Positions 3,909-26,102 of a DNA stretch of 52,083 bases are shown piece after piece. The DNA is from Rhodospirillaceae bacterium (lineage in GTDB: Bacteria; Pseudomonadota; Alphaproteobacteria; Rhodospirillales; JABHCV01). The position numbers and the translations under genes were made by a program. The DNA lies in NCBI GenBank assembly GCA_013204045.1, contig JABMOQ010000077.1:1-52083 (forward strand), in the 5' to 3' direction. The number at the start of each line of letters is the position of its first letter. Positions within the stretch are counted from its first letter, which is position 1. Under the pieces are notes generated by a model, which searched no databases, had not been told where the DNA came from, and saw nothing but the letters and a program-made list of their open reading frames with translations.

Positions 3909-3926
3909 GATCTTTTTACGCCTCCC

Positions 3927-4775: not shown

Positions 4776-5698
4776 ACCCGGACCTCCCCTTCATACGGAT
4801 CGAACGTATCAATTTCATGTGGAAAAATGCTGCGGATGGCGGCTTCTTCGGAAGCCAGGACAACCGTCTCATCATCTTCGTAAAGAACCATCGGCTTGGC
4901 GGCCATGGTGTCCTTGGCCATGCCGAGTTTGTCGGCCGTGGTCACCACATAGGTGAAAACCCCGTCAAGTTCGGTAAGTGAATCGGTCATGGCCTGCTTC
5001 AGGTCTATGCCCTGGTCCATTTTATCGGCCAGATATACGGCAATCAGTTCGGAATCGCAGTTTGACATGAAGCGATGGCCGCGATGTTCAAGCGCCCGGC
5101 GACCGTTCCAGTAATTGGTCAACTGGCCGTTATGAACAACCGCCACATCCTTGAACGGGTACGCCCAGTAGGGGTGGGCCGAACGAATATCCACATCGGA
5201 TTCGGTGGCCATGCGGGTATGGCCGATGCCGTGGGTGCCGATAAAACCGCCCAAGTCATACTGCTGCGACACCACATCGGCATCGCCCAGATCCTTGACC
5301 AGTTCCAGGGCCTCGCCGATGGACAGGATTTCCGCCCCTTCCACGTCCTCGATAAAGTCGGCCAAGCGGCGCATGTCGCCATCGTATTTAACGCGATAGC
5401 GAAAGGCGTATTCGGTGACCGCTTCTTCCGCCAGAATATCGACGCCAAGGCCACGCATCCTTTCATCGACGGTGGCCTTGCGGTCCTCGATATCTTTGTG
5501 AATGTGGAATCCCTTGGCCAGGTCTTCCTGTTCGGCGACCTTGAAGCGGATAATGTGCTCCTTTGCCACCGGGGTGCCATACAACGCGAACCCCGTCGAA
5601 TCGGGCCCCCGGTGTTTCAGTGCCTTGAGCATGGAGGTCATCTCCCTGCCCACATCTCCGCTTTTGCCGCGGTGAATGATTCCTGCGATTCCACACAT
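4763..5698 (-). CDS. glxB: Class II glutamine-amidotransferase-like subunit (GlxB/MgsA type)
   Basis: The protein starts Met-Cys-Gly, so removal of Met exposes the N-terminal nucleophile Cys. Other class II amidotransferase landmarks are HRGPDSTGFALYG near residue 30, HTRMATES, HNGQLTNYW and CDSELIAVYL. The subunit hydrolyses a gamma-glutamyl amide and passes the amine to the FMN barrel. At 311 residues it is the stand-alone domain found in glx/mgs operons rather than the fused large GOGAT. An AAGGAG site precedes the ATG. In this operon it probably acts on the amide made by the ligase encoded next upstream. Confidence 0.9.
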   Translation of the reverse strand: MCGIAGIIHRGKSGDVGREMTSMLKALKHRGPDSTGFALYGTPVAKEHIIRFKVAEQEDLAKGFHIHKDIEDRKATVDERMRGLGVDILAEEAVTEYAFRYRVKYDGDMRRLADFIEDVEGAEILSIGEALELVKDLGDADVVSQQYDLGGFIGTHGIGHTRMATESDVDIRSAHPYWAYPFKDVAVVHNGQLTNYWNGRRALEHRGHRFMSNCDSELIAVYLADKMDQGIDLKQAMTDSLTELDGVFTYVVTTADKLGMAKDTMAAKPMVLYEDDETVVLASEEAAIRSIFPHEIDTFDPYEGEVRVWQL

Positions 5699-5732
5699 GT
5701 GCGTGAATTCTCCTTAGTTATTAAAAAGATTA

Positions 5733-7208
5733 CTACGGCAGAGCGTCCCAATAAGTTTCCAGGTCCCAGTCGGTGACCGTGGAATTGAAACTTTCCCACT
5801 CGTTACGTTTGTAGTGTTCGAACACCCTGTACATCTCGTCGGGCATGGCCGACTTGATGACCTTGTCGTTGGCCAGTTCCGTGAGCGCTTCGCCAAGGGA
5901 CATGGGCAATTTTTTAACTTTCTTACCGGCATCGATGGCTTCGTAAATGTTGCGCTCTTCCGCCTCGCCGGGATCAAGGTTATCGCTGATGCCATGATCG
6001 AACGCCTTCAACAGACCGGAAGACATCAAGTATGGGTTAACCATGGAATCGACCGAGCGATATTCGAAGCGACCCGGCGCCGAAATACGCAGCGCGCAGG
6101 TGCGGTTCTGGTAGCCCCAATCGGCAAAGACGGGCGCCCAGAAACCGGTGTCCCATAAACGCCGGTAGGAGTTGACGGTCGACGATCCGATGGACGTCAA
6201 CGCGCCCAGATGCTTGATCACCCCGCCGATGGATTGCAGTCCGACCGGCCCCGGTTTCTTTTTGTCGATCTTGGGATCGGGCATGAACAGGTTTTTGCCG
6301 CCCTTGCGGTAGTGATAAGCACCATCCATTCCCGGCAGGCTGTCCAAATGGGGCGTGTTGACCAGTTCATCCTTGCCGCCTGTCCACAGCGACATGTTGT
6401 GATGACAGCCGGATGCCGAAACACCCATGAACGGCTTGGTCATGAAGCAGGCTATCAGGTTCATCTCGCGCGCGACCTGCGCACAAATCTGACGATAGGT
6501 GGTCAGGCGGTCGGCATTTCGCAGGCAATCATCATACATCCAGTTCAGCTCAAGCTGTCCCGGCGCGTCTTCGTGATCACCCTGGATCATATCAAGGCCC
6601 ATGGCCGCCGAATACTCGATAACCTTCATAAAGGCCGGGCGCAGGCTTTCAAACTGATCGATATGGTAGCAGTTGGGCTTCGAGAAACCGCCGTCCGGCA
6701 TGCCGTTCTCGCCTTTCTTCAACCACATCATTTCCGGCTCGGTGCCAAGGCGCATGTGCATGCCGTGCTTGGCTTCGAATTCATTATGGTGAATGCGCAA
6801 ATTGCCCCGGCAATCGGAGGTCAGGTGGCCGCCCGGATTGACGGCTTCCTCGCGGTTGCGGAAACAGGTGCAATAAACCCGGGCGATGCGTTTGTCCCAG
6901 GGCAGTTGTACGAAAGTTTCCGGATCGGGAATACCGACCAGTTCGGAGGCTTCCGGGCCATAGCCGATGTATTGTCCGTGACGATCCGTATAGAGGTTGG
7001 CGGTGGAGCCATAAACCAGCTGAAAACCCTTGCCGGCAACGGTTTCCCAGTGATCGGCGGGGATGCCCTTGCCGACGACGCGCCCGGTGACCGAGATAAA
7101 CTGGAAATAGATATAAGTGATTCCCAGTTCATTGATTTTTTCGCGCACCTGCTTGACCAGCTTGTCACGGCCATCGGCGTTTACGTGCAGTTCAAGATCA
7201 GTCGACAT
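5733..7208 (-). CDS. Glutamine-synthetase-family ligase, probable gamma-glutamyl-amine ligase (substrate unknown)
   Basis: The 491-residue product carries recognisable GS active-site blocks: GTEPEMMW, GDHEDAPGQLELN, GCHHNMSLW, NSYRRL, NRTCALRI and RFEYRSVDS followed by NPYL. The chosen start (7208) has a perfect GGGGAGG site; an upstream in-frame start is unneeded. GS-family ligases activate glutamate with ATP and join it to ammonia or an amine. The blocks differ from canonical GlnA (His-Glu-Asp rather than the usual ammonia-site sequence), as in amine-using members such as GmaS and PuuA, and the neighbouring glxBCD and FAD oxidase argue for a glutamyl-amide catabolic role. It is distinct from the clear GmaS at 19552, so its amine is probably not simply methylamine; the substrate is not deducible. 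Confidence 0.85.
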   Translation of the reverse strand: MSTDLELHVNADGRDKLVKQVREKINELGITYIYFQFISVTGRVVGKGIPADHWETVAGKGFQLVYGSTANLYTDRHGQYIGYGPEASELVGIPDPETFVQLPWDKRIARVYCTCFRNREEAVNPGGHLTSDCRGNLRIHHNEFEAKHGMHMRLGTEPEMMWLKKGENGMPDGGFSKPNCYHIDQFESLRPAFMKVIEYSAAMGLDMIQGDHEDAPGQLELNWMYDDCLRNADRLTTYRQICAQVAREMNLIACFMTKPFMGVSASGCHHNMSLWTGGKDELVNTPHLDSLPGMDGAYHYRKGGKNLFMPDPKIDKKKPGPVGLQSIGGVIKHLGALTSIGSSTVNSYRRLWDTGFWAPVFADWGYQNRTCALRISAPGRFEYRSVDSMVNPYLMSSGLLKAFDHGISDNLDPGEAEERNIYEAIDAGKKVKKLPMSLGEALTELANDKVIKSAMPDEMYRVFEHYKRNEWESFNSTVTDWDLETYWDALP

Positions 7209-7242
7209 AGTAACCTCCCCTTTAGTTATGTTTAATGTCCGC

Positions 7243-8586
7243 TCAACTCCATGGGAACGGACTATTGCTGACCGGGTGAAGCTCTCCGGCTTCGTACCTG
7301 GCAAAACGGAATGGCTTTAGAAGCGCGCTCTGCTCGCCCAACAATTCTTCCGCAACCAGTTTGCCGACGCCAATCATTTTATAGCCGTGATTGGAATCTG
7401 CGATGACGTACACATTGTCCCGGAAATTATCGAAAACCGGGAACGAGTCGGGCGTGAAACAACCGATGCCGCCCGACGGCTCGTTCTTGTAATGCTTGAT
7501 CTGCCCTTCGAATCGTTTCTGGCAAAACGCCAGCGCCGAACACCACATGTGGGCGAAGTTATCGTCGACGATGAATTCCGGCGACTCGACGCCATAAGGA
7601 TCGACCTGAACCTCGTCGGCATCCTTTTTTACCGGGTACGGCATGGCGCCGCCCTGAATGCCGCCGAAATTAAAGTCGGGCTTGTAATAGATTCCCCAAA
7701 GCTTGTCGGTAATCAACGAGCCGTCTACATCGGAAAGCAGCGGCGCCGAGGAATCAATATGGATAACCGGCGGCATTTTACCGTCATTGGTTTTCTGGAT
7801 TTCCGGATCGATGCCCAGCGTGCCTTCTTCAAGGGCCCAGTAGCGCCACATGGGAACATCTTTATGCATGGCCCCGTCGGCGCCCTTGATATTCACTACT
7901 TTCGGCAGATCCAGCATGTCCCAGATGCTTTTAACCCAGGGCCCCAGGGCGACCACAACATGATCGCAAGCAATGTTGCCGCGGTCAGTCTCGACCGCCT
8001 TGACGGCTTTTGAGCCATCGTCGGTGACAAACCCGGTGACGGTGACGCCGGTTAAGATTCTGACGCCGAGCGCCTCGGCCTTGTCGGCCAATCCATACAT
8101 GGCGGCCGTGTTGTTGGCGTAGCCGCCACGTTTTTCATGCAGTACCGAGGTCACCCCGGTGGCCTGCCAGTCATGGAATATATCTTTCATGTAGCGGTCG
8201 GTTTTGTCGGCACCTTCGACGAAAACCGATTCGTAGCCGATGGCCTTTTGCTGTTCATATATAGTGGTGATGTTTTCGCGCATACTTTCGGCGCTGATCT
8301 GCATATAGCCGACAGCGTGATAGCTGAATGCCTTCGGATCCGATTCCCAGACATCGACGGAATGGGCCATCAGTTCGCGCATGGCGGGTTGAAAATAATT
8401 GTTGCGGATCACGCCGCAGGCGATGCCGCTGGCGCCGGCGGCGATGCCTGTCTTATCGACGATCAAGATATCTTCGCCGCTGCCCTTGCCCGATGCCTTT
8501 AACCCTTCGGCCAGATGCCAAGCGGTGCTCAGGCCATGAATGCCGGCACCGATAATGACGTATTTAGCTTGGCTTGGAAAAGCCAT
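7243..8586 (-). CDS. FAD-dependent oxidoreductase of the DAO family, first gene of cluster A
   Basis: The N-terminus has the FAD-binding GAGIHG motif at residues 14-19 followed by the usual acidic second-strand end (IVDK), and a late NHGYKMIGVGK segment typical of D-amino-acid/sarcosine/dimethylglycine-type oxidases. The start at 8586 has a GGGAG site; the longer version from 8610 lacks support. Family members oxidise secondary or tertiary amines and N-substituted amino acids to an imine, releasing an aldehyde and the free amino acid. Heading an operon with a GS-like ligase and a GOGAT-like synthase, it is a good candidate to cleave the N-substituted glutamate made by them, the job done in cluster B by four subunits. 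Being soluble and single-chain, it could use oxygen or an electron-transfer partner. Confidence 0.82.
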   Translation of the reverse strand: MAFPSQAKYVIIGAGIHGLSTAWHLAEGLKASGKGSGEDILIVDKTGIAAGASGIACGVIRNNYFQPAMRELMAHSVDVWESDPKAFSYHAVGYMQISAESMRENITTIYEQQKAIGYESVFVEGADKTDRYMKDIFHDWQATGVTSVLHEKRGGYANNTAAMYGLADKAEALGVRILTGVTVTGFVTDDGSKAVKAVETDRGNIACDHVVVALGPWVKSIWDMLDLPKVVNIKGADGAMHKDVPMWRYWALEEGTLGIDPEIQKTNDGKMPPVIHIDSSAPLLSDVDGSLITDKLWGIYYKPDFNFGGIQGGAMPYPVKKDADEVQVDPYGVESPEFIVDDNFAHMWCSALAFCQKRFEGQIKHYKNEPSGGIGCFTPDSFPVFDNFRDNVYVIADSNHGYKMIGVGKLVAEELLGEQSALLKPFRFARYEAGELHPVSNSPFPWS

Positions 8587-8674
8587 CGATGTTCTCCCTG
8601 TGAACCCCATCCTTTAAGGACCTTTTTGTTACCACCAACCTTACAGAAATTCCACGCCAATTTTAAACCATTTC

Positions 8675-13335: not shown

Positions 13336-13953
13336 ATGCCACAAAATCCCCATAGCAACGGGGTTTCCCTTGATAACAGTCTGGAAGTCGCCATCGGCCG
13401 GCAGGCCCGCGCCTTTCGAAAAAATCTGGGCATGACGGTCGTCGAGGTCGCCCGCCTGGCCAACCTGTCGCCGGGCATGCTGTCAAAAATTGAACACGGG
13501 CAGACCTCGCCCTCCCTGTCGACCATACAGAACCTGGCCAGGGCCCTGAACATCCCGGTCACGGCGCTGTTTCGGCAGTTCGAGGAGGAGCGCGATGCCA
13601 GCTTCGTCAAGGCCGGAGAAGGCATTGAGATCGAGCGCCGCGGCACCCGCGCCGGCCACCAGTACCGCTTGCTCGGCCACACCGTCGGCGGCAGCGTCAC
13701 CGTCGAGCCGTATCTGATAACCCTGACCGAAAAATCCGATGTTTTCCCTATTTTTCAGCACCACGGCGTTGAATTCATTCATTTACTTGAAGGTGCGCTT
13801 GAATATCGCCACGGCGATCAGGTCTATGCCATGGCCCCGGGAGATTCGCTGTTTTTCGATGCGGACGCCCCGCATGGCCCTGAAACCCTTAAAAAACTGC
13901 CGATTCGGTTCCTGTCGATCATCAGTTACCCAAATGGCGAAGACACCAAGTAA
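13336..13953 (+). CDS. XRE-type regulator with C-terminal cupin domain
   Basis: Residues about 15-70 form a lambda-repressor-like helix-turn-helix (VVEVARLANLSPGMLSKIEHG, then SLSTIQNLARALNIP). Residues about 105-190 form a cupin with a FQHHGVEFIHLLEG strand and APGDSLFFDADAPHG, the pattern of a small-molecule-binding barrel. PuuR-like regulators of this design control amine and amino-acid catabolism. It lies 121 nt upstream of and on the same strand as cluster B and is its probable regulator; the effector may be methylamine, a glutamylamide or N-methylglutamate. Confidence 0.87.
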   Translation: MPQNPHSNGVSLDNSLEVAIGRQARAFRKNLGMTVVEVARLANLSPGMLSKIEHGQTSPSLSTIQNLARALNIPVTALFRQFEEERDASFVKAGEGIEIERRGTRAGHQYRLLGHTVGGSVTVEPYLITLTEKSDVFPIFQHHGVEFIHLLEGALEYRHGDQVYAMAPGDSLFFDADAPHGPETLKKLPIRFLSIISYPNGEDTK

Positions 13954-14074: not shown

Positions 14075-14986
14075 ATGTGCGGTATCGCAGGCATTCTGTA
14101 CAAAAACGACCCGACGGATTCTTCTGTCGGCAAGGCCCTGATCTCCATGCTCGACGGCTGTCAGCACCGGGGGCCGGATTCCACCGGATTCGCCCTCTAC
14201 CACAGCCCCAAGGCAGATCTTCTGCGCCTGCGCTTCTTCGTCGAGAACGGCGCCGAAGGCGAAAAAACCATTACCCGCATCAAGGACAAGCTGGCCGAAT
14301 TTCAGGCCGAAGTGGTCGAGGAAGAACGCATCGGCTCGACGGCCCGCTTCACTGTCCACTTTAAGGGCGACCTGCAAAAGCTGGCCTATGCCTTGGAACA
14401 CGTGGCCAAGGTGGTTTCCATCGGCGAAAGCCTGGATATCATCAAGGATGTCGGCAGCGCCCACGATGTGGATGACGTCTATGCGGTCGATGATTTTCAC
14501 GGCACCCACGGGATCGGCCATGTTCGCCTGGCCACCGAATCAGATGTCGCGCCGGAAGCGTCCCATCCGTTCTGGGCCACCGGTTTTGCCGATATCGCCA
14601 TCGTCCACAACGGCCAGATCACCAATTACTGGAAGATGCGCCGACGGCTTGAAAAACGCGGCTTCGAATTCAACACCGACAACGACAGCGAACTGATCGC
14701 CGTTTATCTGGCCGATAAGCTATCGCTAGGTGAAAAGCTGACCGATGCGCTGAAAACGTCGATCGACGACATGGACGGCACATTCTCGTTCCTGGTATCG
14801 ACCAAGGATGAAATCGGTTTCGCCAAGGATCACCTTGCCGCCAAACCCATGGTCAAGTTCGAAAACGACGAACTGATCGCCATCGCCTCGGAAGAGGTTT
14901 CACTGAACAAACTGTTTCCGGGCGAGGCATTGATCACGTCGGAACCACCCCCAGGGTCCTATGGTACATGGCAACGATCGATTTAG
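14075..14986 (+). CDS. mgsA: N-methylglutamate synthase amidotransferase-like subunit
   Basis: The 303-residue product begins Met-Cys-Gly, exposing the class II amidotransferase nucleophile, and has HRGPDSTGFALYH, GHVRLATESDV, HNGQITNYW and NDSELIAVYL. It is a close relative of the cluster A protein at 4763 but clearly a separate copy. In the methylamine pathway this subunit releases methylamine from gamma-glutamylmethylamide inside the synthase. An ACGAGG site precedes the start, and the 3' end overlaps the next gene by 19 nt, implying coupled translation. Confidence 0.9.
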   Translation: MCGIAGILYKNDPTDSSVGKALISMLDGCQHRGPDSTGFALYHSPKADLLRLRFFVENGAEGEKTITRIKDKLAEFQAEVVEEERIGSTARFTVHFKGDLQKLAYALEHVAKVVSIGESLDIIKDVGSAHDVDDVYAVDDFHGTHGIGHVRLATESDVAPEASHPFWATGFADIAIVHNGQITNYWKMRRRLEKRGFEFNTDNDSELIAVYLADKLSLGEKLTDALKTSIDDMDGTFSFLVSTKDEIGFAKDHLAAKPMVKFENDELIAIASEEVSLNKLFPGEALITSEPPPGSYGTWQRSI

Positions 14987-16926
14987 CGGCGACCTCCGTC
15001 CGCGAAGCTAACGAGCTTATCCGCAATTATGGTGCCAAAGGTGAGGATGTTGACGTCATCAACCCCGACGCGCGCCACCACATCGGCGTCGGGCTTGTCC
15101 ATGACATCAAGGTTCACGTGCAGGGCTCGGCCGGGTATTTCTGTGCCGGACTGACCGACGGCGGCCGTTTTGAAATAGACAACAACGTTGGCTGGGGACT
15201 GGCCGACAACATGCTTGGCGGTTCCGTTATTGTCCGCGGCAATGCCGGCGCCATCGCCGCCGTCGCCATTCGGGGCGCCGATGTTATCGTCCACGGCAAC
15301 ATCGGCTCCAGGGCCGGACAGGTGATGAAGGAAGGCACCTTGCTGGCCGCCGGAAGCGCCAATTTCATGGCCGGGTATATGATGTACGGCGGACGCATTA
15401 TTATTCTGGGTGAGTCCGGCGAAAAGCTGGGCCAGGATATGACCGGCGGCAATATTTATGTGGGCGGCAAGATCAATTCCCTTGGCACCGACGCCCACCA
15501 GATAGATTTGCCCGGCGATGAAGAAACCTCGATCCGTGAATTCCTCGACCGCTACCAGGTGCCCTTCACGGGCAGCTTTCAAAAGGTCGTCAACGCCGGC
15601 AAGAAGTTGCGCTATGACAAGATCGAGCCCCGCGTCCGCAACGTGCCGTTTTTCGTCGCTTCGGGAAATTCCGATTACTGGAACGAAAAAGTCCAGGAAG
15701 ACATTCATGTAAAGTCGGTGATCGGGCGCTACCGTATCCGCGGCTATGGTGCGACCCGGCCATTGCCGCACCTGTCCGATATCGCCTTCAAAAAAGATAT
15801 CTCGACCATTAGTGCCGACACCAATGTGGTCGATAAAATCGGCCTTGCCACCGAAATCGGCGGGCGCAACGGCGGCAAGCCCATATCTTTAAGCATGCCC
15901 GTGATGATCGCCCCCATGAGCTACGGGGCGCTTTCAAAATCTACCAAGATCGCCCTCGCCATGGCGTCCAAGATGTCCGGCATTTCAGAGAACACCGGCG
16001 AAGGCGGCATGATGGACAAGCAGCGCGAAGTGGCCGGTCAGCTGATCTACCAGTGCCTGTCAGGAAGGCTGGGCTGGAATATTCATGACATGCAGCGCGC
16101 CGACGGGCTCGAAATTTATATCTCCCAAGGGGCCAAGCCGGGCCTTGGTGGCCAGTTGATGGCCAAGAAAGTGACCAAGGAAATTGCCCGCATCCGTGGC
16201 ATTCCGGAAGGCATCGACCTGCGCTCGCCATCGCGCCACCCGGACGTTCTGGGCGCCGATGATCTGGTCATCAAGATCGAGGAATTCCGCGAAGCCACCG
16301 GTTACCGGGTGCCCGTCTCGGTCAAGCTGGGGGCCGGACGCATTCGCGACGACATCAAGATCGCCTGGAAAGACGGCTTCGACTTTGTCGAACTGGACGG
16401 CCTGCAAGGCTCCACCGGCGCCGCCGGTAACGAAGTTCTGGAATTTGTCGGCATCCCGACCCTTTCGGCCATTCAGGAATCCATGGATTCCCTGGACGAA
16501 GTCGGCGGCCGGGGCGACATGCCGATCGTGCTGATGGGCGGCATCAAGGATGGCGTCGATGCGGCCAAGGCCATTGCGCTGGGTGCCCATGCGGTGGCGG
16601 TCGGAACGTCGGCGATTATCGCCGGCGGCTGTATCGCCTGCCTGCAATGCCATGTCGGGCAATGCGTGGTCGGCATCGCGACCCAGGACCCGGAGCATGA
16701 AAAACGCTACGACACCCCCGCCGAAGCCCTGCACATTCACAAGTATCTGGAATCCATGCGCTGGCAAATAGCCGCCATCACCGATGCCCTTGGCCACAAG
16801 AATGTTCATGAACTGGGCCGCGATGATCTTGTTGCGTTAACCCCGGAGGCTGCCGAAATCACCCGCCTTCCCTACGCCCCGGAATATCGGCAAAGCGCCC
16901 AGCCGCGCATTAGGGAGGCCGGTTAG
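14968..16926 (+). CDS. Fused MgsB-MgsC: GXGXG domain joined to FMN/FeS synthase barrel
   Basis: One 652-residue frame carries both subunits that are separate genes in cluster A. Residues about 1-220 are the Gly-rich beta-helix (repeats such as GGSVIVRGNAGA and GSRAGQVMKEG). Residues about 250-640 are the glutamate-synthase FMN barrel with APMSYGALS, NTGEGGMM, GLGGQL, GLQGSTGA and a GGIKDGVDAAKAIALGA strand. The FeS signature is present (CLQCHVGQC near residues 556-564). No stop or frameshift interrupts the join. The predicted reaction is transfer of methylamine from the amide to 2-oxoglutarate with reduction, giving N-methylglutamate. The start overlaps mgsA. The domain order beta-helix then FMN barrel is reversed relative to classical GltB, where the FMN barrel comes first. 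Confidence 0.88.
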   Translation: MATIDLAATSVREANELIRNYGAKGEDVDVINPDARHHIGVGLVHDIKVHVQGSAGYFCAGLTDGGRFEIDNNVGWGLADNMLGGSVIVRGNAGAIAAVAIRGADVIVHGNIGSRAGQVMKEGTLLAAGSANFMAGYMMYGGRIIILGESGEKLGQDMTGGNIYVGGKINSLGTDAHQIDLPGDEETSIREFLDRYQVPFTGSFQKVVNAGKKLRYDKIEPRVRNVPFFVASGNSDYWNEKVQEDIHVKSVIGRYRIRGYGATRPLPHLSDIAFKKDISTISADTNVVDKIGLATEIGGRNGGKPISLSMPVMIAPMSYGALSKSTKIALAMASKMSGISENTGEGGMMDKQREVAGQLIYQCLSGRLGWNIHDMQRADGLEIYISQGAKPGLGGQLMAKKVTKEIARIRGIPEGIDLRSPSRHPDVLGADDLVIKIEEFREATGYRVPVSVKLGAGRIRDDIKIAWKDGFDFVELDGLQGSTGAAGNEVLEFVGIPTLSAIQESMDSLDEVGGRGDMPIVLMGGIKDGVDAAKAIALGAHAVAVGTSAIIAGGCIACLQCHVGQCVVGIATQDPEHEKRYDTPAEALHIHKYLESMRWQIAAITDALGHKNVHELGRDDLVALTPEAAEITRLPYAPEYRQSAQPRIREAG

Positions 16927-19473
16927 ATGGACGACGTCTATAACATCGACCGCATCGCCCCGCCTTGTGCGCCGTCCGGCTCTGAAGACGATACCGGCGA
17001 TGCCCACTTCGTAGCGGCGCCGTGCCAGGTCGCGTGCCCGGTCGGCACCGATGCGCCGTCCTATATCGCCCACATCTGGGATGGCGAGCTTGAAAAAGCT
17101 TTCGAGGCCATCACCGCGACAAACCCGTTCAGCTCTATCTGTGGAAGGGTCTGCGATGCGCCGTGCGAGCCGGCTTGTCGCCGCGCCGACAGTGACGGGC
17201 CCATCGCCATCCGCAACCTGAAACGCTATGTCATGGAAAAACTCGGCAAGGATCATTCCTTGCCGCCGGTAAAAGTCAGCCGCAGCGAGACCGTCGCCAT
17301 CGTCGGCGGCGGCCCGGCCGGATTGACGGCGGCCCAGGATCTGGCCGAAGCCGGGTTCGAAGTTCATATTTATGAAATGACCGACCGCCTTGGCGGCATG
17401 ATGGTCTGGGGAATTCCGGCGTTCCGCCTGCCCCCCGGCACCATTGAAGAAGACCTAAGCCGGATGCTCGCCCGGTGCCCAGGCATCAAGGTTCACCTGA
17501 ATACGAGCCTTGGGACAAACGGCATCACCCTGGACGAATTAAAAGACAAACACGATGCGGTGCTGCTGACCATCGGCGCCTGGTGGGGCAAGTCCATGGA
17601 CATTCCCGGCGCCGACGACGACCGGGTCATCGACGGTGTCGAATTCCTGCGCCGCATCAACGGCGGCGACCGTCCGGAATTGCCCGATACGGTGCTGGTG
17701 ATTGGTGGCGGCGATGTCGCCATGGACGCCTGCCGGGCCGCCAAACGCCTGAACGGTGGCAAGACGGTCAAGGTTCTCTACCGCCGTGGCCCGGACGAAA
17801 TCCCGGCCCGCAAGGAAGAGCTTGAAGACGCCATCAAGGAAGATATCCAAATCATCTACAACATGCAGCCGGTCGGCGTCACCGATAGCGATGGCGGGTT
17901 TTCGCTCCGCTGTGTGGAAACCAGCCTTGGTGCGCCCGGCGAAGATGGCCGCCGGCGCCCCGAAAATATTCCCGGCAGCGAGATCGACGTTCCGTGCGGA
18001 CTGGTCGTGCTTGCCGTCGGCCAGGCGGCAGCCAGTGACGAGTTGGAAAGCCACGACCTGATGAACCGCGACCGGGTCAAAACCGACTGGAGCACCATGG
18101 CCACCGATGATGCCAAGGTGTTCGCCGCCGGCGATGGCGCCTTCGGGGGATCGACCATCGTCATGGCCATGCAGCACGGCCACCGGGCCGCTTATTATAT
18201 GTTGGCGGCCCTGAATGGTGTCGACAAGCCGCTGCCCTACCGGACCCCGTTTAAAACCCGGCGCGTGCCAGTCGCCCAGGACGTCAACTGGGAAGTCCTC
18301 CCACGCCAGGAACAGACCTTCCATGGCCTTGGTGATGCGCCGCAATTATTTCCGGAAATCATGACCACCTATACGGATCAACAGGCCAAAGACGAAGCCG
18401 CCAGGTGCTATCGCTGCGACGCCGAAACCGGCTCGGCCGATTACACGGTCAAGACCCGCGAAGATATCTTCGTCATGGCCCGTACCGAGCCCGAAGATGT
18501 GATCACCCAGCGGGCGATACTGGAAAAAAGACTGATTCTCAGGGATGACCCATACGGCGAAGACGTTCGCGCCTCACTCGATGACCTGGTTTTCCTGCCG
18601 GCCAACCTGTCGCGGCTTGTCATTGATCCCTACCGGGATGCCTGCAATGTGGCGACCAGCCTTTGTGACGTCCTCAACCTGGATTCGCCCTTTATGGTTA
18701 CTGGATTTGACAACGCCCCGGACGAGGTTAAAGCCGCCCTGGCCGAAGGAATACGTCAGGGCGGGTCGGCCTATGTGGGGCGCCGTCCGTTAGCCGATAA
18801 TGTGCCGTGGGTACAGTTGATCGAGGTCGGCGACACGCCCGCCAGCGACGCCGCCATCCATGTTCACTGCCCGGCACCGGGATCGCTGATCAGAATCAGC
18901 AAAACCCCCGGTGTTCCGCAAGGATTGGCGGTAACGGCGGCCGATCTGGAAACCGCCATTCCCTATGCGCTTAACAACCAATTCGATTTGCTGGTGCTTC
19001 TCGGCAACGGGCCCATAGGCGCCCCGTGGCCGGAACTCGCCGGTGAGCCGGATCTGACGGCGATCCGCGACGCCATCGCCATCATGCGCCGCATGAACCG
19101 GGAAGAAGACTTGGGCATCGCCTTTTTTGGCGGTATCCGCACCGGAACCGACGGTGCCAAGCTGATCAGTCTCGGCGCCAACGTGATGATCGTCGGCGCC
19201 GCCATGGGCTTCGCCTTAGGGGGCCGCATCGAGGGTTCAGGCCTGGCCTTCCATGCCGATTATTCCGGCGATGACCGGTCCGAGGCGGCGGCGATGTTGC
19301 TCCAGGCGCTTTCCGGCGAAGCCGCGATCATGGCGCGCTGCACCGGCAAGACCAACGTCCACAACCTGGAACCGGAAGATTTGCGGTCGATCACCCTGAA
19401 GACAGCCCGCGCCGCCGGTATCCCGCTGGCCGGGGCCAGGGTGGCTGCAAAGGCAAAGGCGGCGGCCGAATAA
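16927..19473 (+). CDS. GltD-like NAD(P)H reductase fused to a degenerate synthase barrel
   Basis: Residues 1-500 resemble the glutamate synthase small subunit: Cys pairs at 33/37 and 72/76/80/84 for FeS clusters, an FAD-binding GGGPAG motif at residues 127-132, and a second dinucleotide fold IGGGDVAMDA near 260. Residues about 520-840 align in pattern with the FMN barrel of GlxD (DDLVFLPANLSR, FGGIRTGTDGAKLISLGA, TGKTNVHNLEPEDL). This domain lacks the MSFGALS-type motif and the three-Cys FeS motif, so it is probably non-catalytic. The gene starts one base after the stop of the fused synthase, with an AGGGAGG site. The likely role is feeding NAD(P)H electrons to the synthase, the extra domain serving as a docking surface. 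Confidence 0.87.
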   Translation: MDDVYNIDRIAPPCAPSGSEDDTGDAHFVAAPCQVACPVGTDAPSYIAHIWDGELEKAFEAITATNPFSSICGRVCDAPCEPACRRADSDGPIAIRNLKRYVMEKLGKDHSLPPVKVSRSETVAIVGGGPAGLTAAQDLAEAGFEVHIYEMTDRLGGMMVWGIPAFRLPPGTIEEDLSRMLARCPGIKVHLNTSLGTNGITLDELKDKHDAVLLTIGAWWGKSMDIPGADDDRVIDGVEFLRRINGGDRPELPDTVLVIGGGDVAMDACRAAKRLNGGKTVKVLYRRGPDEIPARKEELEDAIKEDIQIIYNMQPVGVTDSDGGFSLRCVETSLGAPGEDGRRRPENIPGSEIDVPCGLVVLAVGQAAASDELESHDLMNRDRVKTDWSTMATDDAKVFAAGDGAFGGSTIVMAMQHGHRAAYYMLAALNGVDKPLPYRTPFKTRRVPVAQDVNWEVLPRQEQTFHGLGDAPQLFPEIMTTYTDQQAKDEAARCYRCDAETGSADYTVKTREDIFVMARTEPEDVITQRAILEKRLILRDDPYGEDVRASLDDLVFLPANLSRLVIDPYRDACNVATSLCDVLNLDSPFMVTGFDNAPDEVKAALAEGIRQGGSAYVGRRPLADNVPWVQLIEVGDTPASDAAIHVHCPAPGSLIRISKTPGVPQGLAVTAADLETAIPYALNNQFDLLVLLGNGPIGAPWPELAGEPDLTAIRDAIAIMRRMNREEDLGIAFFGGIRTGTDGAKLISLGANVMIVGAAMGFALGGRIEGSGLAFHADYSGDDRSEAAAMLLQALSGEAAIMARCTGKTNVHNLEPEDLRSITLKTARAAGIPLAGARVAAKAKAAAE

Positions 19474-19551: not shown

Positions 19552-20859
19552 ATGGCTAAAAATCTGGCAGAAATCGCCAAAAAGCGAAAAATCAAATATT
19601 TTCTGATCAGCTTCGTCGATCTGTTCGGCGTGCTTCGGGCCAAACTGGTGCCGGCCCGTGCCATCGCCGGCATGCAAAAGAATGGCGCCGGTTTCGCCGG
19701 TTTTGCAGCCTGGCTCGATATGACCCCGGCGCACCCTGACCTGTTCGCCATTCCCGATCCGGACAGCCTGATCCAATTGCCCTGGAAGCCCGAGGTCGCG
19801 TGGCTGGCCAGTGATTTATGGATGGACGGCAAGCCGGTCGCGGCATCGCCGCGCGTTATGCTGAAAAACCAGCTGGCCAAGGCCAGCAAGAAAGGCTGGC
19901 GCATGAAGGCCGGTGTGGAATGCGAATATTTCCTGACCAACGCCGACGGCTCGGCCATTGCCGATACCATGGATACCCAGGAAAAACCTTGCTACGACCA
20001 AAGTGCCCTGATGCGCCGCTATGATGTGGTTTCCGAAATTTGCGACTGCATGCTGGAGCTCGGCTGGAACCCCTATCAGAACGATCACGAAGACGGCAAC
20101 GGCCAGTTTGAAATGAACTGGGATTACGATGACGCCCTGCAAACGGCCGACAAGCATACCTTCTTCAAGTACATGACCCGCACCATCGCCGAAAACCACG
20201 GTCTGCGCGCCACCTTCATGCCGAAGCCGTTTACCAACCTGACCGGCAATGGTTGCCACAGCCATGTGTCTGTGTGGGACAAGACGGGCAAGAAGAACCT
20301 GTTCCTCGACACGAAAGACGAAAACGGCCTGTCCAAGCTGTCCTACAACTTCCTCGGCGGCATTATCCACAGCGCCACCGCCCTATGCTCGGTCTTCAAC
20401 CCGACGGTCAACAGCTACAAACGCATCAACGCGCCGCGCACCATGTCGGGGGCCACGTGGGCGCCAAACACGGTGACCTGGACCGGCAACAACCGCACCC
20501 ACATGATCCGGGTGCCGGAAGCCGGCCGGTTTGAGCTGCGCCTTATGGACGGCGCCACCAACCCCTACATGGCGCAGGCCTTCATCCTGGCCGCCGGCCT
20601 TGACGGCATCGCCAACAAGCGTGACCATGGCACCCGTAGCGATCACAACATGTATATCGAGGGCTTCAAGGTCAAAAACGCCGCAAAGCTGCCGTTGAAC
20701 CTGCTTGATGCGTTGCGCCTGACGGAAAAGAACAAGGTCCTGAGGGACGCTTTTGGCGGCGATGTTATCGACAGTTACGTCAAGCTGAAGATGGGAGAAT
20801 GGCTGAATTACTGCAGCTACCTGACGCAATGGGAACGCGAGTACACCCTTGATTGCTAG
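19552..20859 (+). CDS. gmaS: Gamma-glutamylmethylamide synthetase (GmaS)
   Basis: The 435-residue product has GS-fold blocks in their GmaS form: SFVDLFGVLRAKLVP at the N-terminus, FAAWLDMTPAHPD, GVECEYFL, DHEDGNGQFEMNW, GNGCHSHVSVWD, NSYKR and RFELRLMDG. From memory these blocks closely match characterised GmaS of marine methylamine users, and the length is right. The enzyme joins methylamine to glutamate with ATP. It sits between the synthase genes and the mgdABCD-like genes, the expected order of the N-methylglutamate pathway. A GGGAGG site precedes the ATG. Confidence 0.92.
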   Translation: MAKNLAEIAKKRKIKYFLISFVDLFGVLRAKLVPARAIAGMQKNGAGFAGFAAWLDMTPAHPDLFAIPDPDSLIQLPWKPEVAWLASDLWMDGKPVAASPRVMLKNQLAKASKKGWRMKAGVECEYFLTNADGSAIADTMDTQEKPCYDQSALMRRYDVVSEICDCMLELGWNPYQNDHEDGNGQFEMNWDYDDALQTADKHTFFKYMTRTIAENHGLRATFMPKPFTNLTGNGCHSHVSVWDKTGKKNLFLDTKDENGLSKLSYNFLGGIIHSATALCSVFNPTVNSYKRINAPRTMSGATWAPNTVTWTGNNRTHMIRVPEAGRFELRLMDGATNPYMAQAFILAAGLDGIANKRDHGTRSDHNMYIEGFKVKNAAKLPLNLLDALRLTEKNKVLRDAFGGDVIDSYVKLKMGEWLNYCSYLTQWEREYTLDC

Positions 20860-20879
20860 GTTTCTTTCCTGGTAACGGG

Positions 20880-20913
20880 CGGCGGGCGATGACTCCTTTA
20901 ATATTGCCCGCCG
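20880..20913 (+). other. Stem-loop between gmaS and mgdA
   Basis: CGGCGGGC (20880-20887) pairs with GCCCGCCG (20906-20913). There is no T run, so it is more likely a processing or attenuation hairpin that separates gmaS expression from the dehydrogenase genes than a full terminator. Confidence 0.5.
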
Positions 20914-20970
20914 TTCCTGCCGTCTTTATATGTTGCTGAACAACCCCTTTTTTTAAGCGAACTAGCGCCC

Positions 20971-22212
20971 ATGCCCTTTACCCTGATTAAAAACGGCCTG
21001 AAGAACAATGCGTCAGACATTGTTGACTTCCCGCGCCAGCCGGACCTGAAATCATCCTATGACGTCATCATCGTCGGGGCCGGCGGTCATGGCTGTGCGG
21101 CGGCCTATTATCTGGCCCGCGACTGGGGCATCAAGAACGTCTGCGTTATCGACAAAGGCTACCTGGGCGGCGGCAACACGGCCCGTAACACGGCCATCAT
21201 CCGTTCCAACTACCTGACCGCCGAAGGTGTCGCCTTCTATAAGGAGTCCATGGACCTGTTCAAGGAACTGGACCGGGAACTCGACATCAACCTGATGTAT
21301 TCGGAACGCGGCCACCTGACCCTGGCCCATAACGATGCCTCGATCAGAACATCGCGCTGGCGGGCCGAGGTTAACAAACAGCTCGGCGTCGATTCGGAAC
21401 TTCTCTACACCGACGACGTGGCCAGGGTATGCCCGCAACTGAACGTATCCCAGGACGTGCGTTATCCCATCCTGGGGGCGCTTTACCACCCGCCCGGCGC
21501 CATCGCCCGCCATGATGCCGTCGCCTGGGGCTACGCCCGCGACGCCATCCGCATGGGCGCCGAGGTTCACCAGAAAACACCGGTCACCGATGTCATCGTC
21601 GAAGGGGGCCGGGTCAAAGGCATCCAGACAGACAAGGGCCCGGTATACGCAGACAAGGTCCTGCAAGCCGTCGCCGGTTCGTCGAGCCTGCTGGCCGGCA
21701 TGGCCGGGCTGGAATTGCCGATCCGCACGATCCCGTTGCAGGCGTGTGTCTCGCAGCCCTACAAGCCGATCCTCGACACCATCATCGTTTCCGGGTCCCT
21801 GCACATTTATGTGTCGCAAAGTTCCCGCGGCGAATTCGTCATGGGCGGTTCCACCGACCCCTATCCGCTGTATTCGACCCGCTCGACTCTGGATTTTAAA
21901 GAAGGCCTGATGTCCCATATGCTGGAACTGTTCCCGTTTCTGTCGGAAGCCCGGATCATGCGCCAGTGGGCTGGCATGGCCGATATGTCGCCCGACTTCT
22001 CGCCGATCATGGGGCTGACGCCGATTGAAAACTATTACATCGATGCCGGTTGGGGCACCTGGGGCTTCAAGGCAACGCCCGTATCGGGCAAGCGCATGGC
22101 CGAATGTGTGGCCACCAATAAACAACCCGCATTGCTCGAGCCTTTCCGGCTGTCGCGTTTTGACAACTTCACGCTGACCGCCGAAAAAGGCGCGGCTTCG
22201 GTCGGGCATTGA
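20971..22212 (+). CDS. mgdA: N-methylglutamate dehydrogenase / sarcosine-oxidase beta subunit
   Basis: This 413-residue protein is a SoxB-type flavoprotein: FAD motif VGAGGHG near residues 35-41, the LGGGNTARNTAIIRSNY segment, and RHDAVAWG with His181, which by comparison with sarcosine oxidase beta is the likely covalent FMN attachment residue (inference). The family oxidises an N-methyl amino acid. It is the first gene of a beta-delta-alpha-gamma set, the mgdABCD order. With gmaS and mgs genes just upstream, N-methylglutamate is the expected substrate, although sarcosine cannot be excluded from sequence alone. Confidence 0.9.
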   Translation: MPFTLIKNGLKNNASDIVDFPRQPDLKSSYDVIIVGAGGHGCAAAYYLARDWGIKNVCVIDKGYLGGGNTARNTAIIRSNYLTAEGVAFYKESMDLFKELDRELDINLMYSERGHLTLAHNDASIRTSRWRAEVNKQLGVDSELLYTDDVARVCPQLNVSQDVRYPILGALYHPPGAIARHDAVAWGYARDAIRMGAEVHQKTPVTDVIVEGGRVKGIQTDKGPVYADKVLQAVAGSSSLLAGMAGLELPIRTIPLQACVSQPYKPILDTIIVSGSLHIYVSQSSRGEFVMGGSTDPYPLYSTRSTLDFKEGLMSHMLELFPFLSEARIMRQWAGMADMSPDFSPIMGLTPIENYYIDAGWGTWGFKATPVSGKRMAECVATNKQPALLEPFRLSRFDNFTLTAEKGAASVGH

Positions 22213-22225
22213 GGGAAACAGATCA

Positions 22226-22507
22226 ATGAAAATCATGCCCTGCCCCCTGAATGGCCCGCGCAACATTTCGGAATTCGTCTGCGGCGGTGACGTCAAGGAA
22301 ATGCCGAACCCGGAGTCCTGCTCCGATCTGGAATGGGCTAATTATGTGTTCATTCATAAAAACCCGGCCGGTGTTGTCGATGAATGGTGGTGCCATACGC
22401 CAACCGCGTACTGGTTCGTCGCCCGGCGTAACACCGTGACCGAAGAAATTCTGGAAACCTTCACCGCCCAACAATACTTCGGCGCAAGCCAGGGAGAGCC
22501 GGCATGA
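22226..22507 (+). CDS. mgdB: N-methylglutamate dehydrogenase / sarcosine-oxidase delta subunit
   Basis: The 93-residue product matches the small SoxD zinc-binding subunit: CPLNGPRNISEFVCGGD at the N-terminus and WWCHTPTAYWF in the middle supply Cys/His metal ligands. The subunit is structural in the heterotetramer. It ends four bases into the alpha gene (ATGA overlap), indicating coupled translation. Confidence 0.9.
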   Translation: MKIMPCPLNGPRNISEFVCGGDVKEMPNPESCSDLEWANYVFIHKNPAGVVDEWWCHTPTAYWFVARRNTVTEEILETFTAQQYFGASQGEPA

Positions 22508-25404
22508 GCCATCCCGTAACCCCCCGGCTTGGCGACGGCTTCGGCCTGTTCATCGACCGTAACAAGCCGGTCAGCTTCCGCTTCGACGGCAAAACGTTTA
22601 CCGGCCTTGACGGCGACGTTATCACCAGCGCCCTGGCCGGGGTTGGCACCACCATGATTTCCCGGTCGTTCAAATATCACCGGCCCCGTGGCCTGTTGTC
22701 GTTGGCCGGACACGATGCCAATTCCATCGTCAAGGTCGGGAAAGAGCCCAATGTATTCGCCGACCTGACGCCGATCAGCGAAGGGCTCGATGTGCACTCG
22801 GTCAACACCGCCGGGTCCCTGAACAATGACCGCATGGCGATCCTCGACCTGTTCGGGCGTTTTCTTCCCGTCGGTTTTTATTACCGCAGCTTTTTCAAAC
22901 CCGGCAAGGCCTGGAAGTTCTGGGAGCCGCTGATCCGCCGCATGGCCGGGCTTGGCGTCATTGATCCCGATACCCCCCATGGCTATTTCGACAAGGCCTA
23001 CGGTTTTTACGATGTGGTCGTCGTCGGTGGCGGCCATGGCGGAATGAATGCCGCGATCGAGGCCGCCAGGGATGGCGCCTCGGTGCTGATTATCGAAGAA
23101 GCCCCCCTGCTGGGCGGGGCGCTCAACTACATGCGCCTGGATGCCGATGGCACGCAAGGCATGGCGATCTGCCGGGAATTGCTGTCGGAAATTGAAAGCT
23201 CTGCCAACATTGAAATCATGACCAATACAACCGCCACCGGCCTGTTCACCGACGGCTGGGTGGCGGCGGTCAGGGGCAACCGGCTTTACAAGATCCGCGC
23301 TGGTGCCGTCGTCGTCGCCGCCGGTGCCGTCGAACAACCGGCGGTGTTCCGCAACAACGACCGCCCCGGCATCATGCTGGCCTCGGCGGCATCCCGGCTG
23401 ATGCGTCTTTACGGCGTTACGCCCGGAAGCAACGGCATCATCCTGACTGCCAACGATGATGGCTACGGCCTGGCCCTCGATTGCCTGGACGCCGGAGTAG
23501 CCGTCACCGCCATTCTCGACCTCAGGACATCGCCGCCCGACACACCCATGCGCCTGAAAGCCAAGTCGGCGCACATTACCATTCACGATGCCGCCGGTAT
23601 CGCCAAGGCGTTGGGGAAATGTCGTGTCAACGGCGTCGTCATCTCCAACATCGACGAAGATGGGGCGTGGACCACCGTGGGTAAAACCCTGCCGTGTGAT
23701 TTCGTCGCCATGGCCGTCGGGTATACCCCCAATGGGGCACTGATCTGGCAGGGCGGCGGCTGGTTCAACTACGATTCGGACGCCGCCTATCACATGGTTT
23801 CCAGTCTGCCGACGGGCGTTCACGCGGCGGGCATGGTCAACGGCGTGTTCGAACCGGGCCTTTGTGCCGCCGACGGCAGGCGCGCCGGCGCCAGCGCCGG
23901 GGCGGGCAACCCATCGACCGTAGAACGGCTCGACGATTCGTCCCTGGGCCGGGTCAACCATCCATACCCGGTGTTTTCTCATCCGAAGGCCAAGGACTTT
24001 GTCGATTTCGATGAAGACCTGCAAACCAAGGACCTGATCAATGGCCTGAGCCAGGGCTATCGCGATGTCCAGTTGCTGAAACGTTTTTCGACCCTGGGCA
24101 TGGGGCCAAGCCAGGGCCGCCATTCCAACGTCAACGCCATTCGCCTGATCGCCCGCATCGAAGGAAAGGCCGAAGATGAGGTCGGCGCGACGACCACCCG
24201 GCCGCCCTACCGGACCGAGAAAATGGGCGTGCTGGCCGGTCGGTCGTTCGAGCCGATTCGCCGCACCGCCATGCACCACCGCCATATTGAGGCCGGCGCC
24301 CAGATGATGCCGGCCGGGGCCTGGATGCGCCCGGCCTATTACGGCCCGAAAGAAAATGCCAAGGCGCTGATCGCCGAAGAAGTCATGGGCTGCCGGGGCA
24401 ACCTGGGCCTGATCGACGTTTCGACCCTGGGCGGCCTCGATGTGCGCGGACCCGACGCCGCCGAGCTGGTCAACCGCATGTACACCTGGGCCTATGCCAA
24501 TCAGGACGTCGGTCGCGGCCGCTATCTGCTGATGACGGAGGAAGCCGGTGTCGTCATCGATGACGGCGTCGCCTGCCGTTTCGCCGACGACCACTTTTAC
24601 CTGACGGCGACGACCAGCGGCGTCGATGGCGTCTATCGCCAGATGCTGCTGTGGAATGCCCAGTGGCGCCTGAATGTGGACATCACCAACGTCACCGGGG
24701 CCTATGCCGGCGTCAATATCGCCGGACCCAATGCCCGCAAGGCGCTGGCCAAGGTCTGCGACGACGTCGACATCAGCGCCGACGGGTTCCCCTATATGGG
24801 GGTCCGACAGGGTACCGTCGCCGGCATCCCCGCCCGCCTGCTGCGCGTCGGCTTCGTCGGCGAGCTGGGCTATGAAATCCATGTCCCCGCCCATCATGGC
24901 GAGGCCCTGTGGGATGCCCTGATGCAAGCCGGGGCGGAATTTTCGATTCGCCCCTTCGGGGTCGAGGCACAGCGCGTCATGCGCCTTGAAAAGGGCCATA
25001 TCATCATCGGCCAGGACACCGACGGCCTGACCACGCCCTTTGAGGCCGACATGGGCTGGGCGGTGGCCAAGAAAAAGCCCTTCTACATCGGCAAACGATC
25101 GGTCGATATCCAGAACGCCAGCCCAGCCCATCGCCGGTTGATCGGCTTCAGGCTGACCGACAAATCGGCGCCGTGCCCGGAGGAATGCCATCTGGTCATG
25201 GACGGCGAGACCATTACCGGGCGAGTCACATCGGCGGTGCGCTCGCCGAGCCTGGATGAAGTCGTCGGCCTGGCCTACGTTCCCGTTGCCATCGCCGAAG
25301 CGGGCGGCACCTTTACCATCAAGCTTGGCGACGGGCAGAGGGTCGAAGCACAAGTTTCACCGATTCCTTTCTACGATCCCGACAACAAGCGCCAGGAGCT
25401 TTGA
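22504..25404 (+). CDS. mgdC: N-methylglutamate dehydrogenase / sarcosine-oxidase alpha subunit
   Basis: The 966-residue protein has the usual SoxA layout. An N-terminal ferredoxin-like/NAD-binding part has RSFKYHRPRGLLSLAG near residues 57-72. A dinucleotide fold follows (VVVVGGGHGGMNAA near 173), then an internal FAD/NAD domain with VAAGAVEQP. The C-terminal third (about 600-960) is a GcvT-like folate-binding domain (GYEIHVPAHHGEALWDALM, GQDTDGLTTPFEADMGW). The folate domain lets the one-carbon group leave as methylene-tetrahydrofolate rather than free formaldehyde. Length and domain order are complete. Confidence 0.92.
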   Translation: MSHPVTPRLGDGFGLFIDRNKPVSFRFDGKTFTGLDGDVITSALAGVGTTMISRSFKYHRPRGLLSLAGHDANSIVKVGKEPNVFADLTPISEGLDVHSVNTAGSLNNDRMAILDLFGRFLPVGFYYRSFFKPGKAWKFWEPLIRRMAGLGVIDPDTPHGYFDKAYGFYDVVVVGGGHGGMNAAIEAARDGASVLIIEEAPLLGGALNYMRLDADGTQGMAICRELLSEIESSANIEIMTNTTATGLFTDGWVAAVRGNRLYKIRAGAVVVAAGAVEQPAVFRNNDRPGIMLASAASRLMRLYGVTPGSNGIILTANDDGYGLALDCLDAGVAVTAILDLRTSPPDTPMRLKAKSAHITIHDAAGIAKALGKCRVNGVVISNIDEDGAWTTVGKTLPCDFVAMAVGYTPNGALIWQGGGWFNYDSDAAYHMVSSLPTGVHAAGMVNGVFEPGLCAADGRRAGASAGAGNPSTVERLDDSSLGRVNHPYPVFSHPKAKDFVDFDEDLQTKDLINGLSQGYRDVQLLKRFSTLGMGPSQGRHSNVNAIRLIARIEGKAEDEVGATTTRPPYRTEKMGVLAGRSFEPIRRTAMHHRHIEAGAQMMPAGAWMRPAYYGPKENAKALIAEEVMGCRGNLGLIDVSTLGGLDVRGPDAAELVNRMYTWAYANQDVGRGRYLLMTEEAGVVIDDGVACRFADDHFYLTATTSGVDGVYRQMLLWNAQWRLNVDITNVTGAYAGVNIAGPNARKALAKVCDDVDISADGFPYMGVRQGTVAGIPARLLRVGFVGELGYEIHVPAHHGEALWDALMQAGAEFSIRPFGVEAQRVMRLEKGHIIIGQDTDGLTTPFEADMGWAVAKKKPFYIGKRSVDIQNASPAHRRLIGFRLTDKSAPCPEECHLVMDGETITGRVTSAVRSPSLDEVVGLAYVPVAIAEAGGTFTIKLGDGQRVEAQVSPIPFYDPDNKRQEL

Positions 25405-25406
25405 TC

Positions 25407-26102
25407 ATGACCCTAGCCCCCGACAGCCAAACCCGGCGCAGCTTCATCTACAGGAAACTACTGGAGGCCAATGCCAGCTTCGCCGAAGTTAACGGCGGCG
25501 CCGTGGCCATGTCCCTGGCCGGTGAAAGTCCTGACCGCGCCGCCTCCCTGGGGCTGTGCGACATTTCCGTTTTCCCGCGCACCGGATTCAAGGGCGCCGA
25601 TGCGCTGGCCTGGATGGCGGGCCGGGGCGTTACCCTGGAGCCGCGACCGAATACCACATTCCAGCAACCGGGCGGCGGCCTTGCTGCGGTGCTGGCCCCC
25701 GGCGAAGCGGTGCTGCTGGCGCCCCTTTCCGGCGACGGGGCACAAATCGATACCCTGGATGGGGCCTGGAGCCTGGACATTGCCGACCGCGCCTACCGGG
25801 TGCCCCGGGCCAACACCAATTTTGAATTCATCATCAGCGGCAACCATGCGGCAAAAATGTTTGCCAAAATCTGCGGCGTCGATTTAAGGGGGCAATCCTT
25901 CGCCAACCTGGCCATTGCCCAGACATCCATTGCGCGCACCAACAGCATCGTTATTCGCAATGATCTTGGCACCACCCCGGCTTTCAGAATGCTCGGTGAC
26001 AGCGCCTCGGCCGAATACATGTGGGAGTGCCTGCTGGACGCCATGGACGAATTCGGCGGCGCCCCGGTCGGCCTTGATGCGGTCCGCAATCTGGCGGCTT
26101 AA
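25407..26102 (+). CDS. mgdD: N-methylglutamate dehydrogenase / sarcosine-oxidase gamma subunit
   Basis: The start at 25407 is an ATG preceded by GGAG; a TTG at 25401 is less likely. The 231-residue product is a SoxG-type GcvT/YgfZ-like fold with ADRAYRVPRANTNF and FRMLGDSASAEYMWECLLDAM. It completes the heterotetramer and ends cluster B. Sequence conservation is low in this family, so the call rests on length, position and the closing motif. Confidence 0.85.
   Translation: MTLAPDSQTRRSFIYRKLLEANASFAEVNGGAVAMSLAGESPDRAASLGLCDISVFPRTGFKGADALAWMAGRGVTLEPRPNTTFQQPGGGLAAVLAPGEAVLLAPLSGDGAQIDTLDGAWSLDIADRAYRVPRANTNFEFIISGNHAAKMFAKICGVDLRGQSFANLAIAQTSIARTNSIVIRNDLGTTPAFRMLGDSASAEYMWECLLDAMDEFGGAPVGLDAVRNLAA

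Follow-up and report, generated by a model that had tools for sequence, protein, structure and literature searches.

Why should an operon for methylamine use by the N-methylglutamate (NMG) pathway carry a gene for a GltD-type reductase whose product ends in a glutamate synthase-like barrel stripped of catalytic motifs? The gene in question, gltDx (16927..19473, forward strand), encodes an 848-aa protein composed of a GltD-type reductase and a C-terminal pseudo-barrel, and lies in the window, by which we mean the whole 52,083-nucleotide stretch of Rhodospirillaceae DNA that was analysed. The answer we regard as probable is that gltDx encodes the subunit through which electrons enter a variant N-methylglutamate synthase, mgsA-mgsBC-gltDx, a replacement for canonical mgsABC. 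The parts of this unit are already known and their combination is new; a literature search, with subscription journals largely outside its reach, found no paper linking mgsABC or gmaS with gltD.

The operon and its predicted catalytic subunit

In the window, a regulator gene is followed on the forward strand by mgsA-mgsBC-gltDx and then by gmaS-mgdABCD (19552-26102). The regulator (13336..13953; tblastn synteny, 60-86% identity) is an XRE-cupin protein, homologues of which head canonical and variant NMG operons alike. The mgsA-like gene (14075..14986) encodes a class II glutamine amidotransferase subunit (Pfam GATase_6/7) with the N-terminus MCGIAG, Cys2 being present, and mgsBC (14968..16926) fuses a GXGXG domain (PF01493, 53 bits) to a Glu_synthase barrel (PF01645, 308 bits). 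Downstream of gltDx, gmaS (19552..20859) encodes a gamma-glutamylmethylamide synthetase (TIGR03105, 666.6 bits against a cut-off of 469.6). Of the N-methylglutamate dehydrogenase subunit genes, soxB-like mgdA (20971..22212) was placed by tblastn synteny with other NMG operons, soxD-like mgdB (22226..22507, 93 aa) by its translation and by lying, as in Aminobacter, between mgdA and mgdC, and soxA-like mgdC (22504..25404) and soxG-like mgdD (25401..26102) by open reading frame and synteny, all on the forward strand.

The preliminary description placed an active-looking MgsBC next to the reductase in an N-methylglutamate operon, and the homologues bear this out: the [3Fe-4S] cysteine motif is found in 21/21 of them and the remaining barrel motifs are likewise intact. 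Their barrels form a clade of their own (SH-aLRT 100), with 41-47% identity to canonical MgsC. From these motifs MgsBC is predicted to be the catalytic subunit, with an intact, active-looking FMN/[3Fe-4S] barrel.

The window holds a second cluster on the reverse strand (2571-8610), which encodes a DAO-type oxidoreductase, a 523-aa glutamine-synthetase-like protein and GlxB/GlxC/GlxD-like proteins. The GlxD of this cluster shares 52% identity with canonical MgsC; the same gene set also adjoins the canonical mgs operon of locus L122.

A GltD-type reductase with two predicted iron-sulphur clusters

A Pfam search places two domains of gltDx above their cut-offs, Fer4_20 (17017..17244, residues 31-106; PF14691, 84.5 bits) and the FAD/NAD(P)H-binding Pyr_redox_2 (17290..18180, residues 122-418; PF07992, 93.8 bits). 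Eight cysteines are each kept in 22/22 homologues, six of them within Fer4_20 (C33, C37, C72, C76, C80 and C84) and two in a CxxC (C494 and C497; 18406..18417) that closes the reductase about 50 residues ahead of the extra C-terminal domain and occupies the same place in the GltD-like modules of 9bov and 8oh5. Eight invariant cysteines are enough for two [4Fe-4S] clusters, C494 and C497 being the presumed remaining ligands of one of them, and the sequence marks gltDx as a GltD-type NAD(P)H/FAD/[4Fe-4S] reductase with two clusters. It falls below the curated NCBIfam cut-offs for GltD and GltD-like proteins (best PRK12771, 395 bits against 516). A YRR segment past the second dinucleotide fold, by comparison with GltD, hints at NADPH.

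The nearest solved structures are the GltD-type modules of Hyl-type formate dehydrogenase, NfnA and GltD. Among these, the GltD-like modules of Hyl-type formate dehydrogenase/NfnA (9bov, 8oh5, 9n5u) are the best solved relatives over residues 30-500, with 9bov and 8oh5 also covering the trailing CxxC; they are joined to other electron carriers, whereas gltDx is joined to its pseudo-barrel. A match on an Acetoanaerobium plasmid (92% coverage) was rejected as a gltDx homologue, being by its sequence a GltD-like/formate-dehydrogenase-type fusion without the barrel.

A degenerate barrel maintained by selection

The C-terminal domain (18559..19440, approximately residues 545-838, some 295 residues) gives only sub-threshold Pfam matches to Glu_synthase (PF01645, cut-off 20.4), 17.1 bits at residues 703-766 in the full protein and 19.7 bits when the C-terminus is searched alone. 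Profile methods are far more sensitive here. An hhalign comparison of 22 such domains with eight MgsC/GlxD barrels returns a probability of 99.9% (E 2.9e-35) over 293 columns, in agreement with the preliminary description of a GltD-like reductase carrying a degenerate GlxD-type barrel, and an MgsC/GlxD profile gives 88-116 bits on every one of the 22 members, so that a relation to the GOGAT-type barrel is seen throughout. An AlphaFold2 model of the domain, built with five sequences, has a mean pLDDT of 68 (85-92 in the core), its first 73 and last ~40 residues being unreliable. It matches FMN-dependent TIM barrels, namely hydroxyacid oxidases and flavocytochrome b2 (VIA Z 17.6, 212 residues, 3.2 Å), over model residues 58-311, GltB being absent among the matches listed. 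Judged by its sequence, the C-terminal domain of gltDx is a degenerate FMN barrel of the Glu_synthase kind.

The degeneration is family-wide. The MSFGALS-type motif of the flavin face, the GEGG motif, the QGxKxGxGG substrate loop and the [3Fe-4S] cysteine motif are each found in 0/22 pseudo-barrels, so the earlier claim that flavin motif and iron-sulphur cysteines had been lost stands for these elements; it does not extend to the FMN-phosphate loop. That phosphate-gripping loop, GGIRTGTDGAK in the window (19129..19161), is kept in 22/22 as GGxxxGxDxAK (also written GGxRxGTDxAK), as is the tail DDL.F.P..L.R.VI..YR. Its retention indicates that the pseudo-barrel has been stripped at the flavin face and the cluster, not everywhere. 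The domain is found in every full-length homologue recovered and is under purifying selection, with dN/dS of 0.13-0.19 versus 0.07-0.12 for the reductase part, synonymous sites being near saturation in the pair formed by the window and locus L044.

Where did the pseudo-barrel come from? Mean profile scores on the 22 domains are 111 bits for GlxD2-type proteins, 90 bits for canonical MgsC and 47 bits for MgsBC. Its best kept segments are two tails with counterparts in MgsC/GlxD: DDLVFLPANLSRLVIDPYRDAC at the N-terminal end (18580..18645), found in 22/22 pseudo-barrels and 0/21 MgsBC, and MARCTGKTNVHNLEPEDL at the C-terminal end (19330..19383), whose strict motif is found in 17/22 pseudo-barrels and again 0/21 MgsBC. 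Since both the scores and the tails point to MgsC/GlxD and not to MgsBC, the pseudo-barrel is read as the relic of a separate MgsC/GlxD subunit, and a tree agrees, with modest support (83) and a long branch. Its origin as a duplicate of the MgsBC barrel was rejected on the scores (47 versus 90-111 bits). The closest relatives of the pseudo-barrel, both tails included, are therefore the GlxD/MgsC barrel proteins, one of which is encoded at 2571-3908 of the window; unlike the pseudo-barrel, these are free-standing and keep their catalytic motifs. Two cysteines, C573 and C805, one in each conserved tail, are invariant in 22/22 pseudo-barrels and are matched by cysteines in MgsC/GlxD, so that pairing or metal binding may be their function.

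Its origin on the MgsC/GlxD side makes the pseudo-barrel a replaced partner subunit and not a copy of the active barrel. Most probably it plays a structural part, keeping the reductase in place on MgsBC, and this putative docking role, raised in the preliminary description, is plausible. The invariant phosphate loop suggests that the pseudo-barrel may do more than dock, the binding of FMN or of another phosphate ligand being conceivable. Specifically, the domain could gate electron transfer, either by sensing a ligand or as a weak second site for flavin, a role compatible with the synthase assignment. The conservation of GGxRxGTDxAK in every member exceeds the needs of a passive dock; all other flavin and substrate motifs searched for are nevertheless absent, and the tails common to MgsC and GlxD rank among the best kept parts of the domain, for which reasons we consider a gating role rather unlikely.

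The unit in the operon slot of canonical mgsABC

The unit was recovered from 22 loci, in Alphaproteobacteria and two gammaproteobacterial MAGs. In 22/22 mgsBC lies directly upstream of gltDx, and mgsA lies upstream of mgsBC in all 20 loci whose contig reaches that far; mgsA-mgsBC-gltDx is thus conserved as a block in Alphaproteobacteria. Among 385 sampled genomes of the class, 14 carry it, that of the window included. GmaS above its curated cut-off was found in 21/21 unit carriers searched, compared with 67/385 sampled genomes (17%), a linkage with a Fisher p of ~7e-12 in a test that ignores shared ancestry. The GmaS-bearing genomes comprise 11 with the unit only, 43 with canonical MgsC only, 3 with both and 10 with neither: most unit carriers lack canonical MgsC, and the two avoid each other.

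Gene order tells the same story. The canonical arrangement mgdABCD-XRE-mgsA-mgsB-mgsC-gmaS is seen in loci L119, L130 and L131, and locus L040 reads mgdCD-XRE-mgsA-mgsBC-gltDx...gmaS, with the unit in the slot of canonical mgsABC. In genomes G392 and G433, mgdABCD-XRE-gmaS-purU is present and MgsBC is the sole MgsC-type barrel, so that the unit is the only visible synthase candidate there. It is the GmaS linkage, the slot replacement, the conserved block, these two genomes and the avoidance of canonical MgsC that together lead us to read the unit as a variant N-methylglutamate synthase.

Could the unit instead be a second GOGAT, a glutamine-dependent glutamate synthase of general function, whose place near gmaS is due to chance or serves nitrogen scavenging? 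Its domains are GOGAT domains, gmaS is non-adjacent to the unit in about half of the loci, and several loci without an adjacent gmaS have unrelated genes as neighbours. Against this stand the occurrence of GmaS in all carriers searched and in only 17% of the background, the position of the unit in the mgsABC slot, which the same XRE regulator heads, and the GltB-like open frame of ~1500 residues that many carriers also possess. We judge a second GOGAT improbable.

Several further observations concern the genomes around this unit. For some carriers the surroundings of gmaS, where mgd genes were looked for, showed none. Many carriers possess a GlxD2-type paralogue, 52-56% identical to MgsC, that could contribute to synthase function. 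Immediately after the unit, loci L048 and L050 carry a complete canonical mgsABC set of the cluster-bearing kind together with mgd genes, so that a single gene cluster holds both kinds of synthase. A protein encoded beside the unit in L037 (6196-7485) and L043 (6450-7730) resembles, by eye, the LarA family of nickel-dependent lactate racemases. Finally, GmaS occurs in ten genomes (G016, G185, G207, G224, G229, G279, G292, G346, G357 and G370) in which, at the thresholds applied, canonical MgsC and the unit are both absent; this implies an alternative that went unseen, possibly a synthase of a third type or a different role for GmaS.

Relation to known synthases and a proposed electron route

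The variant unit shares with the canonical mgsABC of Methyloversatilis, Methylobacterium and Aminobacter the amidotransferase, GXGXG and FMN barrel domains and a common slot with the XRE regulator, gmaS and mgdABCD. It differs in that canonical mgsABC consists of three separate genes with no reductase gene, whereas the unit joins mgsB and mgsC in one gene and adds a reductase, and in that the MgsBC barrel falls outside the canonical MgsC clade. NADPH-dependent glutamate synthase, GltBD, resembles the unit in pairing an FMN/[3Fe-4S] barrel subunit with a GltD-type FAD/[4Fe-4S] reductase; its GltD, however, carries no barrel, and GltB is one 1500-residue chain in which the order of the FMN and GXGXG domains is reversed.

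By this likeness to GltBD, a route for electrons from NAD(P)H to an imine can be proposed within the unit. GmaS would form gamma-glutamylmethylamide, from which MgsA would free methylamine; at the FMN barrel of MgsBC, methylamine and 2-oxoglutarate would be condensed and the imine reduced to N-methylglutamate. The electrons would pass from NAD(P)H to FAD, through the two [4Fe-4S] clusters of GltDx to the [3Fe-4S] cluster and then to the FMN of MgsBC.

The canonical enzymes bear on this proposal. No reductase gene is present in the canonical mgsABC and gmaS operons of Methylobacterium sp. DM1, Paracoccus aminophilus, Rhizobium etli, Aquabacterium, Acinetobacter and Aminobacter aminovorans, and these six, together with published gene lists, match the statement in the preliminary description that published operons comprise mgsABC without a dedicated reductase. 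Nor was a GltDx-like reductase found beside cluster-bearing canonical MgsC in 20 loci, whose flanks vary and some of whose contigs are short. In the 56 canonical MgsC proteins scored, the [3Fe-4S] cysteines are kept in 24 and lost in 32, YDDWHEGRDPAG replacing CHHCHTGRCPVG in the latter; among sampled members the losses form one clade in the tree. Loci with a cluster-less canonical MgsC are L052, L053, L054, L056, L089-L115, L117 and L143. Methylobacterium, Paracoccus aminophilus, Rhizobium etli and Aminobacter aminovorans all fall in the cluster-less set; the last of these we take to be today's name for Pseudomonas MA, the source of the classical N-methylglutamate synthase (NMGS).

The redox cofactor of NMGS has been stated to be unknown (PMC6237917). 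For the classical enzyme, the work of Pollock and Hersh (1971, 1973), as it is cited there, reports an FMN-based formation of N-methylglutamate out of glutamate and methylamine. This account favors a redox-neutral synthase in the window as well, in which glutamate and methylamine are exchanged on FMN and the reductase merely primes or repairs the flavin, and heterologous mgsABC does function in P. putida without a partner reductase of its own. Yet the reductase is invariant in the unit with every cofactor cysteine kept, and the [3Fe-4S] cysteines lost from the MgsC of several classical operons are retained in all 21 MgsBC proteins, which makes such an exchange, to our mind, a poor prospect for mgsA-mgsBC-gltDx. 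Loss of the cluster fits a redox-neutral enzyme, whereas a cluster with a dedicated reductase fits a reductive one, and the cluster-less MgsC clade may thus mark redox-neutral N-methylglutamate synthases. Tentatively, and with slightly more doubt than conviction, we suggest two redox regimes for NMGS: a redox-neutral one in the cluster-less classical clade, and an NADPH-driven one in mgsA-mgsBC-gltDx, where a stripped MgsC-type subunit would seat the reductase.

A lineage with a built-in NAD(P)H reductase names an electron donor and a route for N-methylglutamate synthase, both open to assay. The difference from canonical MgsC without a cluster supplies a sequence marker for the enzymes expected to need reductant. 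If the proposal is true, the pseudo-barrel of gltDx would clearly exemplify a dead enzyme barrel put to new use, as a subunit joining an electron donor to a living relative.
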